Shown here in pieces: positions 34,764 to 40,892 of a stretch of DNA of 64,000 bases; position 1 is the stretch's first letter; each line of letters opens with the position of its first letter. The notes under the pieces were generated by a model. The model was not told the origin of the DNA and did not search any database. It saw nothing but the letters and a program-made list of their open reading frames with translations. The DNA comes from Halostella limicola (lineage in GTDB: Archaea; Halobacteriota; Halobacteria; Halobacteriales; Natronoarchaeaceae): assembly GCF_003675875.1 (NCBI RefSeq), contig NZ_ML014752.1, positions 62,001 through 126,000 of the forward strand, read 5' to 3'. A program made the position numbers and the translations under genes.

Positions 34764-36596
34764 TCAGTAACTGCGGACCTTCGGCTCGTAGGTCTTGTTT
34801 TCGCCTTCGAGGATGACGGGCTTGTAGAACAGCTCGGGGTCCCCGTCGTTCCAGCGCAGCAGCGTGTGCTTCAGCCACTCGTCGTCGCGGCGCTCCTGGA
34901 ACTCCTGTCGCCAGTGCGCGCCGCGGAACTCCTCGCGGGCGAGCGCGCCGAGGGTGATGGCCTCGGCGAGGTCGATGAGGTTCCGCGTCTCGATGGTGTG
35001 CAGGAGGTCGGTGTTGAACGTCCGGGACGGGTCGTCGACGTACACGTCCTGGTAGCGCTCGCGCGCCTCGCGGATGTCCTCCAGCGCGGTCTTCAGGCCG
35101 TCCTCGTTGCGGAAGACGTTGACGTTCTCCGTCATCGACGCCTGCAGGTCCTCGCGGATCGCCGCGTGCTGGAGCCCTTCGTCCTTCTCGAGGAACGACT
35201 GCACGCGCTCGCGCTCGTGCTCGACGGTCTGCTCGACGACCGCCGTGGGGTCGGCCAGCGCACCGCCGTCGGCCGCGACGTCGTCGCTCGTCTGCCGAAT
35301 TGAGCCGGGCGCGACGGGCGTGTCGACCTCGCCGGGCTCGCACTCGTCGGTGTAGCCCGTCGTGATCTCGGCCTCCTTCATGTCCTTGCCGGCGGCGTGC
35401 TGCCCGGCGCGCTTGCCGAACACGATGAGTTCGGGCAGGGCGTTGCCGCCCAGGCGGTTCGACCCGTGGACCGAGACGCAGGCGCACTCGCCGGCCGCGT
35501 ACAGGCCCTCGATACAGGTCTCGCCGTTCTCGTCGGTCTCGATGCCGCCCATCTCGTAGTGCTGGCCGGGCTTGACCGGCATCGGCTCCACGAGACCGTC
35601 GACGCCCTCGAAGTCCTCCGCGAGGTGGAGGATGTTCTCCAGGCGGTCGAGGATGCGCTCCTCGCCGAGGTGGCGCATGTCGAGGTAGACGTACTCGTCG
35701 TTGACGCCCCGTCCCTCGTTGACCTCGGTCAGCTCGGCGCGGGAGACGACGTCGCGGGAGGCGAGTTCGCCCTCGTTGTTCGCGTAGCCGTGTTCGAACA
35801 TGAACCGCTCGCCGTCGGCGTTGTAGAGGACGCCGCCCTCGCCGCGGACGCCCTCGCTGATGAGGACGCCGGTCGAGGGGAGCGTCGTCGGGTGGAACTG
35901 GACGAACTCCATGTCCTCGAGCGGGACGCCGGCGCGGTAGGCCATCGCGTAGCCGTCGCCGGTGTTCGAGACGGCGTTGGTGGTGTGGTCGTACACCTGG
36001 CCGGGACCGCCGGTCGCGAGGATGACCCCGCGGTTGGCCTTGAAGCCCTCGATGTTGCCGGTCTTGACGTCGTACGCGACGACGCCGTGGCACTTGCGGT
36101 CCTCGGGGTCCTCGTGGTCGGTGACGGCGAGTTCGGTCACCTGCCACTCGTCGTACACCTGGATGCCGTGTTTGACCGCCTGCTCGTACATCGTGTGCAG
36201 CAGGTGGTGGCCCGTCTCGGCCCCGGCGTACGTCGTCCGGGGGAACGAGAGGCCGCCGAACGGGCGCTGGGAGACGCGGCCGTCGTCCTCGCGGGAGAAC
36301 GGCATGCCCCAGTGTTCGAGGTTGATGACCTCCTCGGGCGCGTCCTGCGCCAGTGTCTCGATGGCCGGCGCGTCGCCGAGGTAGTCCGACCCCTTCATCG
36401 TGTCGTAGGCGTGGTCCTCCCAGGAGTCGCCCTCTCGCAGAGCGGCGTTGATGCCGCCCTCCGCGGCGCCCGTGTGACTGCGCACCGGGTGCAGTTTCGA
36501 GACGATCGCCGTGTCCGCTCCTTCCTCGCTCGCTGCGATCGCGGCTCGGAGGCCCGCACCGCCGCCGCCGACCACGATCACGTCGTGTTCGTGCAT
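34764..36596 (-). CDS. sdhA: Succinate dehydrogenase / fumarate reductase flavoprotein subunit
   Basis: The 610-residue protein has the FAD Rossmann motif DVIVVGGGGAGLRAA, His41 in SHTGAAEGG for covalent FAD attachment, the substrate-site region (HPTTLPSTG, GVRGEGGVL), HGSNRLGGNALPE near 390 and the C-terminal helical domain ending in EPKVRSY. It oxidises succinate to fumarate on the cytoplasmic side. It is the last gene of sdhCDBA, 37 bases after sdhB. Confidence 0.97.
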   Translation of the reverse strand: MHEHDVIVVGGGGAGLRAAIAASEEGADTAIVSKLHPVRSHTGAAEGGINAALREGDSWEDHAYDTMKGSDYLGDAPAIETLAQDAPEEVINLEHWGMPFSREDDGRVSQRPFGGLSFPRTTYAGAETGHHLLHTMYEQAVKHGIQVYDEWQVTELAVTDHEDPEDRKCHGVVAYDVKTGNIEGFKANRGVILATGGPGQVYDHTTNAVSNTGDGYAMAYRAGVPLEDMEFVQFHPTTLPSTGVLISEGVRGEGGVLYNADGERFMFEHGYANNEGELASRDVVSRAELTEVNEGRGVNDEYVYLDMRHLGEERILDRLENILHLAEDFEGVDGLVEPMPVKPGQHYEMGGIETDENGETCIEGLYAAGECACVSVHGSNRLGGNALPELIVFGKRAGQHAAGKDMKEAEITTGYTDECEPGEVDTPVAPGSIRQTSDDVAADGGALADPTAVVEQTVEHERERVQSFLEKDEGLQHAAIREDLQASMTENVNVFRNEDGLKTALEDIREARERYQDVYVDDPSRTFNTDLLHTIETRNLIDLAEAITLGALAREEFRGAHWRQEFQERRDDEWLKHTLLRWNDGDPELFYKPVILEGENKTYEPKVRSY

Positions 36597-36633
36597 AGTT
36601 TGGTGGTAGTGTCGGTGGTTGGTTTCGCGTCGG

Positions 36634-37509
36634 TCACCAGAACTTCAGGTTGCTCTTGACAGCCTCGCGCTTGAGCTCCTGAATGTGTTCGGTCAGGGGG
36701 ATGTCCTTCGGGCACACCTCGGTACAGGAGAACTGGGTCTGGCAGCGCCAGACGCCGTGTTCCTGTTCGAGGACGCGCATCCGGTGTTCCTGCAGGTCCT
36801 CGCCCTCGCGCTCGTCCATGTAGAAGCGGTAGGCCTTGTTGATCGCCGCGGGGCCGAGGTACTCGTTGTCCCCGGCGGCGATGTTGCAGGAGGACATGCA
36901 CGCGCCGCACCAGATGCAGCGCGTCGACATCTTGATCTTCTCGCGGTTCTCGCGGGACTGGCGCTGCTCCTCCAGTTCGCCGTCCGGCGTCTCGTTGGTC
37001 TGGAAGTACGGCTCGACGGCCTCCATCTGGTCGTAGAAGTGCTGCATGTCGACGACCAGGTCCTTTACGACCTCCTGATGGGGGAGCGGCTCGACGCGGA
37101 CGGGGGTCTCCAGCTCGCCCAGCTGCGTCTTGCAGCAGAGCCGCTGGGAGCCGTTGACGAACATCGCGTCGCTCCCGCAGATGGCCTGCCGGCAGGAGTG
37201 CCGGAAGGTGAGCGAGGAGTCGTAGTGGTCGCGCGCGTACATCAGCGCGTCGAGCACCGTCATCCCCTTCTCGTAGGGGACGTGGAAGTCGTCGAACCGC
37301 GGCTCCTGCTTGCCCTCGACTTCGGGGTCGTAGCGGAACACCTTCAGGTGGACCGTCTCGTCGGCGGCCTCCAGTTCCTCGCGCGCGAGGCGCTCGCGGT
37401 CGGCGGCCTCGCGGCGCTCGGCCTTCTCGGCCATCCGGCGCTCCTGATGCGGTTTGCTCTCCGTCTCGGCTTCGGTCTCCGTCTCGGTCTCCGGAACTTG
37501 CGTGCTCAT
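36634..37509 (-). CDS. sdhB: Succinate dehydrogenase iron-sulfur subunit
   Basis: The 291-residue protein starts with a low-complexity Glu/Thr extension and a charged helix (residues 1-50), then a ferredoxin-like domain with Cys106, Cys111, Asp114 and Cys125 or 126 for [2Fe-2S]. The [4Fe-4S] set is Cys198-X2-Cys201-X2-Cys204-X3-Cys208, and Cys256, Cys262 and Cys266 contribute to the [3Fe-4S] centre and the remaining [4Fe-4S] ligand. Asp in the third [2Fe-2S] position also occurs in bacterial SdhB. It passes electrons from SdhA to quinone. Confidence 0.97.
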   Translation of the reverse strand: MSTQVPETETETEAETESKPHQERRMAEKAERREAADRERLAREELEAADETVHLKVFRYDPEVEGKQEPRFDDFHVPYEKGMTVLDALMYARDHYDSSLTFRHSCRQAICGSDAMFVNGSQRLCCKTQLGELETPVRVEPLPHQEVVKDLVVDMQHFYDQMEAVEPYFQTNETPDGELEEQRQSRENREKIKMSTRCIWCGACMSSCNIAAGDNEYLGPAAINKAYRFYMDEREGEDLQEHRMRVLEQEHGVWRCQTQFSCTEVCPKDIPLTEHIQELKREAVKSNLKFW

Positions 37510-37510
37510 G

Positions 37511-37873
37511 TTAGAATCCCGCCATTGCGATGGCGACTCTGACGCCCTGTGCGATCAGTCCGAGGCTGGCGACGACCAGCACCCACTTGACGACCTGCTT
37601 CTGCGTGCCTTCGAGGCCCTGATTGATCAGGGCGTTGTACACGCCGTTGACGCCGTGGAACGTGCCCGTCACGAGGAAGGCGATCATCGTCGCGAAGTAG
37701 CCGATGTTCTGCATCCGGGCCTGCGTGCCGGCGAACTCGATCTCGTAGGCGTGGTGCACGAAGTGCAGGAGGAAGAAGTGGAACGCGAGCACCACGACGA
37801 GAAACGCCGCAGTCACGCGCTGGAGGACCCATCGCGTGCTGGCGGGCTCGAACGAGGAATACCGTTCCGCCAT
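37511..37873 (-). CDS. sdhD: Succinate dehydrogenase membrane anchor subunit
   Basis: The 120-residue protein has three membrane helices (about 20-40, 54-76 and 95-117) and several His in the first (FHFFLLHFVHHAYEI), suitable for haem or quinone binding. Its ATG overlaps the sdhC stop (TGATG) and its stop lies one base before the sdhB start, which fixes the frame. Confidence 0.92.
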   Translation of the reverse strand: MAERYSSFEPASTRWVLQRVTAAFLVVVLAFHFFLLHFVHHAYEIEFAGTQARMQNIGYFATMIAFLVTGTFHGVNGVYNALINQGLEGTQKQVVKWVLVVASLGLIAQGVRVAIAMAGF

Positions 37874-38268
37874 CAGACGCCCACCTCCGAGAGGAAGGTC
37901 GGGACGCTCGCGACGACGATGAGGCCGGTCAGCACCATCGACGCGTAGAAGCTCTTGTCCTGCGCTTCGAGGCCGACGCCGAGGTCGACCATCAGCAGGC
38001 GGATCCCGTTGAGGATGTGGAACACGGCGACCGCCAACAGCCCGATCTCCATGATGCGGACGATGAACAGGCTCTCGAGGCCCTGCAGCGTCGTGTTGTA
38101 CACTTCGGCGCTCTGGGTCGCGCTGCTCAGCACGGCGATGTGCGTGAACAGGTAGCCGATGAGCACCCAGCCGGTGAACTTGTGGAAGACCCAGGCCCAC
38201 ATGCCGGCCGAGAACTCCCGCCACCGACCGAAGTCCTCGACGCGACCTCGATTGTAAGACTGACTCAT
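37873..38268 (-). CDS. sdhC: Succinate dehydrogenase cytochrome b subunit
   Basis: The 131-residue protein has three membrane helices; His29 and His43 in [21 protein letters not shown] and His near residue 83 ([11 protein letters not shown]) fit the SdhC haem b pattern. As first gene of sdhCDBA it sits about 45-50 bases after a CTATACC promoter element. It anchors the complex and reduces the quinone, menaquinone in haloarchaea. Confidence 0.93.
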
Positions 38269-38372: not shown

Positions 38373-39392
38373 TCAGACGGTCCCCCCGCGCTCCCGCTCC
38401 AGGGCGCTTCTGGTCGCCGGGTCGAGTTCAACGAGGTGGCAGATCGGGTTCCCCGGATACACGAGCGGGTTCTGGAGGATGCCCACGAGCAGGCCCGTGA
38501 AGGGGGCCGTCACATCGTTGGTCTCGGTCTCGAAGGGGTTGGTGATCGTGCATATCGTCTCGCCCTTCCGGACGAGCGACCCCCGCGAGAAGTGCATCTC
38601 GACCATCCCGCCGGTGTCGGCGCGGAGCCACGTCTTCTCGGCGGACCCGTCGACGACGGTGCGCCAGCCCGGCCACCTGACGGCGTTGGTGGGGTGCAGC
38701 CCGAACTCGGCGAAGACGCTCGCGACGCCCTCCAGCGCGCGGTCGATGAAGTGGCGCTGGAACTCGTGGGCCTTCCCCATCTCGATGGTGATCGTCGGGA
38801 CCCCGTGCTCGGTCGCCTCCCGCCGGAGGGTGCCGCTCGGCCCGTCGCTGGAGATGATGACGTTCGACCCGAACGCGTTGGCCAGCCGGCGCACCTCCTC
38901 GTTCTCCGTGTCCCCCCGGACGTGGAGCATGTTCGTTCGGCCGCGCGTCGAGGTGTGGAAGTCGAGGCCGATGTCGCAGGGGGCGATGAAGTTGTCGAAG
39001 ATACGGGAGGCGATCCGCTTCGAACTCGTGCTGTTTTCCGACCCGGGGAACGAGCGGTTGAGGTCGCGGTCGTAGATGGGGAGGTAGCGCTGCTGGGCGA
39101 GGAACCCGGGGACGTTGACGACGGGCATGCAGACGACCGTGCCGCACAGCCCCGAGTGGTCCCACTCGTTCGCCACCTCGCGGACGACCTCGATGCCGTT
39201 GAGCTCGTCGCCGTGGACCGCCGCGCTGAGAAACGCCGTCGGGCCGGGACGCTCCCCGTTGACGATCGTCACGGGGATCCGGACGGGGTCGCCGAGGTAC
39301 GTCTCGCTGACGCTGTACCGGATGTTGGCCGACTCACCCGGCGCGACGCTCCCGCCGTTGTAGGTGAACGTCTCGGCCTCCGTGTCGCTCAT
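38373..39392 (-). CDS. AstE/aspartoacylase-family (M14-like) zinc deacylase
   Basis: The 339-residue protein has the zinc site His60-Gly-Asp-Glu63 (SAAVHGDELNG), His146 in DIGLDFHTSTRG, and the catalytic Glu204 in ITIEMGKAHE. A C-terminal beta domain (residues about 240-339) resembles a biotinyl/lipoyl-like barrel (MVEMHFSRGSLVRKGETICTI), common in this branch. Family members release acyl groups from amino acids or cut amide bonds. It diverges from the RimK-retropepsin gene, with two promoters back to back, which implies a shared pathway. Confidence 0.9.
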   Translation of the reverse strand: MSDTEAETFTYNGGSVAPGESANIRYSVSETYLGDPVRIPVTIVNGERPGPTAFLSAAVHGDELNGIEVVREVANEWDHSGLCGTVVCMPVVNVPGFLAQQRYLPIYDRDLNRSFPGSENSTSSKRIASRIFDNFIAPCDIGLDFHTSTRGRTNMLHVRGDTENEEVRRLANAFGSNVIISSDGPSGTLRREATEHGVPTITIEMGKAHEFQRHFIDRALEGVASVFAEFGLHPTNAVRWPGWRTVVDGSAEKTWLRADTGGMVEMHFSRGSLVRKGETICTITNPFETETNDVTAPFTGLLVGILQNPLVYPGNPICHLVELDPATRSALERERGGTV

Positions 39393-39414
39393 ATACGTGG
39401 TTCCGCGTCGGCCA

Positions 39415-39423
39415 CGTAAAAGT
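39415..39423 (-). promoter_or_regulatory. TATA box for the deacylase gene
   Basis: Read on the minus strand, ACTTTTACG lies 23-31 bases before the ATG at 39392, consistent with a leaderless transcript. Confidence 0.55.
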
Positions 39424-39531
39424 CTGCCACGTCACGGTTTCGATGGGATCGAGTCCGACACCGAGCGGACGCGCCCGCACAGGCGGCAACTGACTGACCA
39501 CGCTGTCTGTGGACCCGGAACACAGCTAACA

Positions 39532-39540
39532 GTTTTTGTT
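39532..39540 (+). promoter_or_regulatory. TATA box for the RimK-retropepsin gene
   Basis: GTTTTTGTT lies 21-29 bases before the ATG at 39561, consistent with a leaderless transcript. Confidence 0.55.
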
Positions 39541-39560
39541 ATGGCTATCGAACAGTACCT

Positions 39561-40892
39561 ATGTCCAATACCGGGGAGACGGTTTCGGTCGGCGTTCTCA
39601 GTCTACACAACAGCAAGGAGACGAAGGCGATACTCAACGCGGTCGAGGAACTGGGACACGATCCGGAGTGGCTCCGCGAGGAGAACACGGCCGTCGAGAT
39701 CGAGGACGGCGAGGTGCACATCGAGCCCGACGTCGACCTCGTGGCGAACCGACTGCTGCTGTCGAACACCGAGCAGCCGTCGGAGGAACTCGGGCTCGCG
39801 ACCACGTTCGAACACCTGCGGCCGATGCTAAACAAGCCCCAGGCCGTGCTGACGGCGATGCACAAGTTCGCCGCGGCGACGGCGCTCTCGAACGCCGGCA
39901 TCCAGGTCCCAGACGCCTTGCTGGCGCTCAGCAACGACCGTCTCAACCGCGACCGGTTCAAGTTCGGCGACGAGGCGGTGTACAAGACCGCCATCGGCAC
40001 GCACGGCGGCGGCACGTGGAAGATCGGCCCCGAGGAGGAGGTCAACCCCCGCGTCGGCAACCGCCAGGCGTTCCTCCAGAGCCTCATCGAGCGCAGCGGC
40101 GAGCGCCACCGCGACCTCCGCGTCTACGTCGTCGGCGACGAGGTCATCGGGGCGATGAACCGCTACGCCCCCGAGAACGACTGGCGGACCAACGTGGCGC
40201 TCGGCGGCGACGTGGAGAACGCGAGCGAGGATCTCCCGTCGGAGGTCGTCGACATCGCCTTGCAGAGCACGGACGTCATCGGCCTCGACTACGCCGGCGT
40301 CGACCTCGTCGAGGGCGAGGGCGGGTGGTACGTCCTCGAAGTCAACCCGACCGCGGGGTTCAAGGGGATGTTCGAGGCGACCGGGCGGAGCCCCGCGCCG
40401 TACATCGCGAAGCTCGCCGTCGAGAGGGCCGGCGGCACCGTCGACGACTCGACCGTCGAGGATCTCTCCCGGGTCCTCGACGACTCCGTCCCGACGTGCA
40501 AGCCGGAACCGCTCCGCGCGCCCTCCGGCGAGTCCCTCGTCATCGGCTACACCGAGGAGGTCGTGGTCAGCGGCACCAGCGGGTCGGCGAACGTCGTCGC
40601 GAAGTCCGACACCGGTGCGACGCGGACGAGCATCGACACGCGCCTCGCCGCCGAGATCGGCGCGGGGCCGATCAAGAGCCTCACCAAGGTCCGCTCCGGC
40701 AGTTCGAAGACGGGACGCACCCGCCCGGTCGTCGACATCGTGGTCGGCATCGGCGGGCAGCGCCACACCGTCACAGCGAGCATCGAGGACCGCAGCCACA
40801 TGTCCTACGAGATGATCCTCGGCCGGGACATCCTCGGGGACTATCAGGTCGACGTCAGCCGGCGCATCGACGCCGAGGAAGAAGAGGAGTAG
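39561..40892 (+). CDS. RimK-type ATP-grasp amino-acid ligase fused to a retropepsin-like aspartyl protease domain
   Basis: The 443-residue protein has a RimK pre-ATP-grasp and ATP-grasp region (about 1-295) with the Lys142-Thr-Ala-Ile-Gly-Thr-His-Gly-Gly-Gly loop, RVYVVGDEVIGAMNR and the metal/ATP site VDLVEGEGGWYVLEVNPTAGF. A second domain (about 325-435) carries AKSDTGATRTSID with Asp350-Thr-Gly-Ala, the hallmark of retroviral-type aspartyl proteases, and later MILGRDILGDYQV. RimK-like enzymes attach amino acids, often glutamate, to protein or cofactor tails; the protease domain could trim them. The partner gene upstream encodes an AstE-like deacylase. Confidence 0.9.
   Translation: MSNTGETVSVGVLSLHNSKETKAILNAVEELGHDPEWLREENTAVEIEDGEVHIEPDVDLVANRLLLSNTEQPSEELGLATTFEHLRPMLNKPQAVLTAMHKFAAATALSNAGIQVPDALLALSNDRLNRDRFKFGDEAVYKTAIGTHGGGTWKIGPEEEVNPRVGNRQAFLQSLIERSGERHRDLRVYVVGDEVIGAMNRYAPENDWRTNVALGGDVENASEDLPSEVVDIALQSTDVIGLDYAGVDLVEGEGGWYVLEVNPTAGFKGMFEATGRSPAPYIAKLAVERAGGTVDDSTVEDLSRVLDDSVPTCKPEPLRAPSGESLVIGYTEEVVVSGTSGSANVVAKSDTGATRTSIDTRLAAEIGAGPIKSLTKVRSGSSKTGRTRPVVDIVVGIGGQRHTVTASIEDRSHMSYEMILGRDILGDYQVDVSRRIDAEEEEE

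Follow-up and report, generated by a model that had tools for sequence, protein, structure and literature searches.

Bacterial poly-alpha-glutamylation is known mainly on ribosomal protein S6, and S6 of E. coli is the classic RimK substrate. RpsF of Pseudomonas fluorescens ends in DNADE, and the protease RimB cuts Glu tails but not Asp tails and needs about five to six Glu (PMC11957791). RimB-RimK hybrids with the protease at the N-terminus have been published for bacteria; the RimBK hybrid DP2392 of Desulfotalea psychrophila cleaves poly-glutamylated RpsF, and the authors saw no RpsF glutamylation by the tested hybrid (PMC11957791). In the published model of the retropepsin RloA, K46, R114, and R137 contact poly-Glu, and the Arg mutants fail (PMC12239564). 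Here we describe a locus of Halostella limicola in which a RimK-type ligase and a retropepsin-like domain are joined in the opposite order, beside a gene for an AstE-like hydrolase.

In the 64,000-nucleotide stretch of DNA analysed (the window), the gene for the 443-aa fusion lies on the plus strand and the AstE-like gene on the minus strand (Table 1), in agreement with a sequence-only reading that had described two functions as fused and the third as divergent. That reading had placed the start of the feature at 39393, which takes in the 168-bp intergenic region; the ORF begins at 39561. The fusion of a RimK ligase to a retropepsin-like domain is real, as family HMMs scored over their cut-offs and a retropepsin fold was modelled. 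In the ligase part, PF08443 matched with E 1.3e-23 (84 bits vs a cut-off of 21), and the RimK family model TIGR00768 scored 152.7 bits, over its cut-off of 143.4. Residues K102, K142, R187, R201, R209, N211, D248, E260, and N262 were invariant in all 62 haloarchaeal sequences on which residue conservation was counted, so that the ATP-grasp lysines (K102, K142) and the Mg ligands (D248, E260, N262) were present in 62/62. An AF2 model of the whole chain with these 62 sequences as input, a monomer prediction like all structure models used here, had a pLDDT of 88.8, and its last three residues were disordered (pLDDT <50). In Foldseek searches of the PDB, the top matches were LysX/ArgX with LysW (5k2m, 3vpb), which cover the ligase part, and RimK was matched too. 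Judged by its residues and its model, the fusion is a RimK-type ligase with a full set of metal and ATP residues, and ATP-dependent Glu ligation is predicted for it from family knowledge and the kept residues. It scored below the equivalog cut-offs of S6-modifying RimK (PRK10446, 59.4 of 331 bits), LysX (TIGR02144, LysX_arch, 112.3 of 275.6 bits), CofF (TIGR04443, 55.1 of 300 bits), and MptN (NF040720, 119.8 of 350 bits), the last being the best equivalog-level score.

Table 1 Features of the fusion/AstE locus, in positions of the window.
Feature	Position	Strand	Details
RimK-type ATP-grasp ligase with C-terminal retropepsin-like domain	39561..40892	+	443 aa, ATG start
RimK ATP-grasp domain	residues 100-274 = 39858..40382	+	PF08443, TIGR00768, Foldseek to LysX/ArgX and RimK
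Retropepsin-like domain	residues ~322-432 = 40524..40856	+	D350-TGA; K348, R388, R411; G421-R-D
Acidic linker and terminal Glu tail SRRIDAEEEEE, proposed Glu-ligation acceptor	40857..40889	+	terminal-Glu conservation, tree
AstE/AspA-like zinc hydrolase	38373..39392	-	339 aa; PF24827; H60, E63, H146, E204
168-bp intergenic region between the divergent genes	39393..39560	.	AT-rich TATA-like stretches upstream of each start, viewed in an alignment of six close relatives

The C-terminal domain of the fusion matched PF05618 over its cut-off at residues 371–436, and Asp350-Thr-Gly-Ala was found exactly where the sequence-only reading had put it. Both the D-T/S-G and the GR motifs are present, with DTGA kept in 61/62 and GRD in 62/62 haloarchaeal fusions. 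The earlier expectation of an aspartyl protease was borne out by the monomer model: modelled alone, the domain reached a pLDDT of 86, and its best PDB folds were Lpg0085 and the RloA retropepsins (E ~7e-7), followed by HIV protease and Ddi1. Profile comparison with stand-alone RimB (Prob 95.6, E 1.2e-8) aligned 113 columns, with DTGA, DR.HM, and LLGR among them; the cut-off of the RimB equivalog NF052261 was missed (13.1 of 200 bits). K46, R114, and R137 of RloA correspond to K348, R388, and R411 of the fusion, with which the HMMER alignment to 9g59 agrees, and both the K-x-D relation (Lys two residues before Asp) and the 23-residue gap between the two Arg are preserved. These poly-Glu contact residues were kept in 61, 61, and 62 of the 62 fusions, respectively. 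As far as conserved positions and the model indicate, the retropepsin domain of the fusion retains its catalytic Asp along with a Lys/Arg set for poly-Glu binding, and its protease chemistry is predicted from family knowledge and these residues.

The divergent neighbour matched AstE_AspA_cat (PF24827) with E 4.6e-46 (157.2 bits vs a cut-off of 25). The zinc deacylase residues named earlier, His60-Gly-Asp-Glu63, His146, and Glu204, were all in place, and H60, E63, H146, and E204 were invariant in 62/62 haloarchaeal pair partners and 9/9 operon homologs. The protein missed the cut-offs of AstE of arginine catabolism (TIGR03242, 23.7 of 305.65) and DoeB (TIGR02994, 93.6 of 402.7). Among 341 Halobacteria genomes, with the fusion called at E below 1e-100, both genes were found in 305, AstE only in 3, the fusion only in none, and neither in 33 (fusion orthologs 305, AstE partners 308); the fusion orthologs mostly shared 62–74% identity, and with this spread the fusion is no chance event. 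Fusion and AstE are haloarchaeal core genes, and all three families, ligase, retropepsin, and AstE, are present in Haloferax volcanii. Both genes were lost jointly in 18 genera, and presence was mixed in 11 of these; the co-loss count is inflated because adjacent genes can go in one deletion; likewise, the Fisher value for co-occurrence (8e-43) overstates independence, as the genomes are related and a single deletion can take both. In 71 genus-level loci, AstE was divergent within 275 bp in 44 and divergent at 1–4.5 kb in 17, on the same strand in one, and absent from the locus in nine (one at a contig edge). The linkage expected by the sequence-only reading therefore holds across haloarchaea, with AstE a divergent neighbour in 61/71 genera and lost together with the fusion. 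Diverged second fusion/AstE pairs also move together, one of them on a plasmid. Signs of decay were seen as well: in one genome (G202), both main-pair genes are fragmentary and a diverged pair survives.

Some further features of these loci were observed. In G110 (L120), the fusion has decayed to an 89-aa remnant by an in-frame internal loss, with its start and Glu-ended tail kept and AstE intact. An AstE-family paralog in the genome of the window (L005, G000:C2:827341-827895) apparently has Asp for the first zinc His, and may be inactive or have other metal ligands. Succinate dehydrogenase genes for flavoprotein, iron-sulfur, and membrane subunits adjoin AstE in the window (34764–38268), and SdhB-like and SdhA-like neighbours were found in 46 and 43 of the compared loci. 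In Natrialbaceae-like genomes (L080, L085, L088, L093, L098, L053), AstE and the fusion are separated by the gene of a GNAT acetyltransferase (~254 aa) whose C-terminus resembles a zinc ribbon, joined in several of them by the gene of a flippase-like membrane protein; both genes are lineage-specific and were rejected as members of the core.

The nearly invariant C-terminal Glu, absent from the sequence-only reading, is the most informative feature of the fusion. The window protein has five Glu at its very end. After the last strand (residue 432), the tail runs for 9–27 residues and its sequence is different in nearly every genus. The last residue was Glu in 69/71 and Asp in 0/71 genus-level orthologs, and the next-to-last residue was Glu in 56, Leu/Val in 14, and Asp in none; the body of the fusion contains 7.5% Glu and 8.1% Asp. 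On a tree of the protein core, position −1 changed twice, position −2 15 times, and positions −3 to −15 29–47 times each, and tail length underwent 42 changes. In a control limited to neighbouring genes of the fusion loci, 20% of background ORFs ended in E and 7% in EE, and among 16 other neighbour families one (712 aa, 9 loci) had an E end in 8/9, the rest in ≤38%. The two exceptions, and others among close relatives, have a run of at least five Glu followed by 1–5 residues. Most of the diverged fusion paralogs (46–64% identity) still have an E/EE end. Full-length paralogs L128, L130, L154, and L157 are without a Glu end, and L156 keeps the EE end with a dead protease motif; among paralogs, protease death and tail loss do not go together cleanly. 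In the second-copy fusions L130, L156, and L157, the protease motif is degenerate (EPVA, NPAH, and DTTA for DTGA) and all checked ligase residues are kept. A like, Glu-ended C-terminus is that of E. coli bS6, which ends in DDAEAGDSEE and whose fully modified form has 135 residues, 4 longer.

Elsewhere, the same three functions are encoded by separate genes. Methanogen loci carry retropepsin (~160 aa), RimK (301 aa), and AstE in that order on one strand, with RimK and AstE beside the retropepsin in 10/10 methanogen loci tested, and bacterial plasmid records have rimB-rimK-astE in Salinivibrio, Acaryochloris, and Phaeobacter and rimK-astE-rimB in two Vibrio. These compact three-gene operons bear out the earlier view of ligase, retropepsin, and AstE as linked partners. 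They are like the haloarchaeal pair in having three functions at one locus and the AstE H, E, H, E in common, but their genes are separate, their RimK is of another subfamily, and their ligase is without a Glu-ended tail, mostly having -RGKG-type ends, not EE. On the RimK tree, one of two deep trees that are both limited by long branches, the operon RimKs form one close-knit group and the haloarchaeal ligase a separate deep branch; because of this separate branch, we rejected the idea that the haloarchaeal fusion is the methanogen operon simply joined up.

In one methanogen and three Vibrionaceae (L041, L144, L145, L170), the RimB/RimK/AstE operon is next to mechanosensitive-channel genes, with Mg transporters in two of these, neighbours that hint at an osmotic or ionic role. 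A same-order bacterial fusion in Vibrio campbellii was rejected, as it consists of two adjacent genes. Second-tier methanogen PF05618 matches were set aside, the proteins examined having no DTG. Methanogen proteins of ~180 aa (L131, L133) match PF05618 at positions 25–138 with E 1e-9 to 1e-12, lack DTG, and end in a DHELEH or DHEMEH segment. The fusion was not found in viral contigs, and its viral origin or spread was rejected, phages having RimK-like domains only.

Taken on sequence comparison, the chance is close to even that fusion and AstE form a haloarchaeal module that makes and trims poly-alpha-glutamate, in which the ligase would glutamylate, most likely, its own tail. The make-and-trim idea itself came from the sequence-only reading and is supported by the retropepsin fold, by the linkage and joint loss with AstE, and by the three-gene operons elsewhere; the substrate, which that reading left unnamed, narrows to poly-glutamate, with the tail of the enzyme as its probable site. 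The ligase would spend ATP and add glutamates singly to a C-terminal glutamate. We infer from the tail features that the likeliest acceptor would be the enzyme's own tail, a variable, flexible, acidic linker with a strictly kept Glu end, built like bS6. Dimerised retropepsin domains would trim the chain at about 5–8 Glu, as RimB and RloA do, and AstE, to judge from co-retention and its deacylase family, would remove the short stub or recycle the released glutamyl peptides. The tail could act as a built-in primer or a charge-bearing switch, and free poly-Glu from it might also be a product. Since the operon RimKs end in -RGKG and not EE, self-tailing would be a haloarchaeal invention. Automodification by C-terminal ligation was suggested earlier for the ATP-grasp family CDC123 (PMC4431377), which by analogy gives the self-ligation idea a precedent, not a proof. 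Further points against self-tailing are that, in Halostella relatives, only ~8 residues extend past the fold, perhaps too few for the tail to get to the ligase site in cis, that AF2 leaves the tail disordered (pLDDT <50), and that some full-length paralogs are without the Glu end. That ligase, poly-Glu protease, and acceptor tail make up a one-chain auto-polyglutamylating enzyme, class-wide in archaea and with AstE as obligate stub remover, is a tentative proposal to which we give somewhat less than an even chance.

It is possible though unlikely that the ligase works in trans on a cofactor or a different protein, with the -EE tail as a pseudo-substrate regulating one active site. Relatives of RimK modify S6 as well as cofactors (MptN, CofF), MptN gave the best equivalog-level score (119.8 bits), some genera have a short tail, and methanogens and bacteria run the trio without it; however, all equivalog cut-offs were missed by far (MptN 119.8/350, CofF 55.1/300), and a pseudo-substrate has no obvious need for a terminal carboxylate that is always on Glu amid a changing linker. 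The tail could also be a LysW-like carrier, the gamma-carboxyl of its terminal Glu holding another amino acid in biosynthesis and the AstE-like hydrolase freeing the product. LysX couples its substrate to a Glu at a C-terminus, and LysX/ArgX with LysW were the top Foldseek matches (5k2m, 3vpb), but we see a slim chance for a carrier, as the LysX_arch cut-off was missed (112.3 of 275.6), the retropepsin with its poly-Glu-binding signature would be left without a role, and no biosynthetic genes travel with the pair among the compared haloarchaeal loci.

In our estimate, there is a small chance that free poly-alpha-glutamate is what the module produces, for use as a counter-ion or osmolyte, and that the tail serves solely as its primer. 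Such a product would fit the stimulation by RimB of free poly-Glu synthesis by RimK (PMC11957791), the action of Rlo proteases in hypo-osmotic tolerance (PMC12239564), and the related operons of Vibrio, Salinivibrio, and a methanogen, which have mechanosensitive channels and Mg transporters as neighbours, whereas no channel gene was recognised beside the window pair or in the neighbour families that recur at haloarchaeal loci. We found no poly-Glu measurement in haloarchaeal cells in the literature. It is very unlikely that the tail just reflects the usual surface acidity of haloarchaeal proteins and has a functionless terminal Glu. Such proteins are acidic, a Glu end is present in 20% of neighbouring ORFs, and one of the 16 other families is Glu-ended in 8/9 (712 aa; its loci come from one family of genera). 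Nevertheless, Asp matches Glu in frequency over the body of the fusion yet is absent at −1 and −2, position −1 underwent 2 changes vs 29–47 per linker position, and the other 15 families are Glu-ended in ≤38%.

With a ligase, a matching protease, and a fixed Glu end in a core haloarchaeal pair, the substrate is testable by mass spectrometry in the tractable Haloferax volcanii. Archaea are not known to have bS6, the RimK substrate, which leaves room for other roles of RimK-type ligases there beyond cofactor and lysine synthesis. AstE is added as a third component of RimB/RimK systems; our literature search found no paper that deals with RimK in haloarchaea or with rim operons that include AstE. 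Self-tailing, if true, would give Archaea a system for protein poly-glutamylation, and the search found no earlier report of one.

Among known systems, RimABK of Pseudomonas fluorescens is alike in that it uses ATP to add Glu at the C-terminus of a protein and has a retropepsin for removal, but its acceptor is RpsF, and in place of AstE it has a c-di-GMP phosphodiesterase as third component. LysX/ArgX with LysW, the closest solved fold of the ligase part, also adds to a C-terminal Glu, whereas its carrier is a separate protein, it has no protease, and the fusion misses the family cut-off. The RloA retropepsins of Pseudomonas (9g58, 9g59) are among the closest solved folds and have the poly-Glu contact residues in common with the fusion; they are secreted and unfused, and their flap region is ~28 residues longer by residue spacing. 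The RimBK hybrid DP2392 likewise has a RimB-type retropepsin and a RimK ligase in one chain, but a RimB domain N-terminal to RimK, as in the hybrid, is not what the haloarchaeal fusion has: its retropepsin is C-terminal and followed by the Glu-ended tail. The paper on the hybrids names no archaea, and its components do not include AstE (PMC11957791). The haloarchaeal protein is a variant of the published RimB-RimK fusion, from which it differs in domain order, ligase subfamily, tail, and AstE partner.
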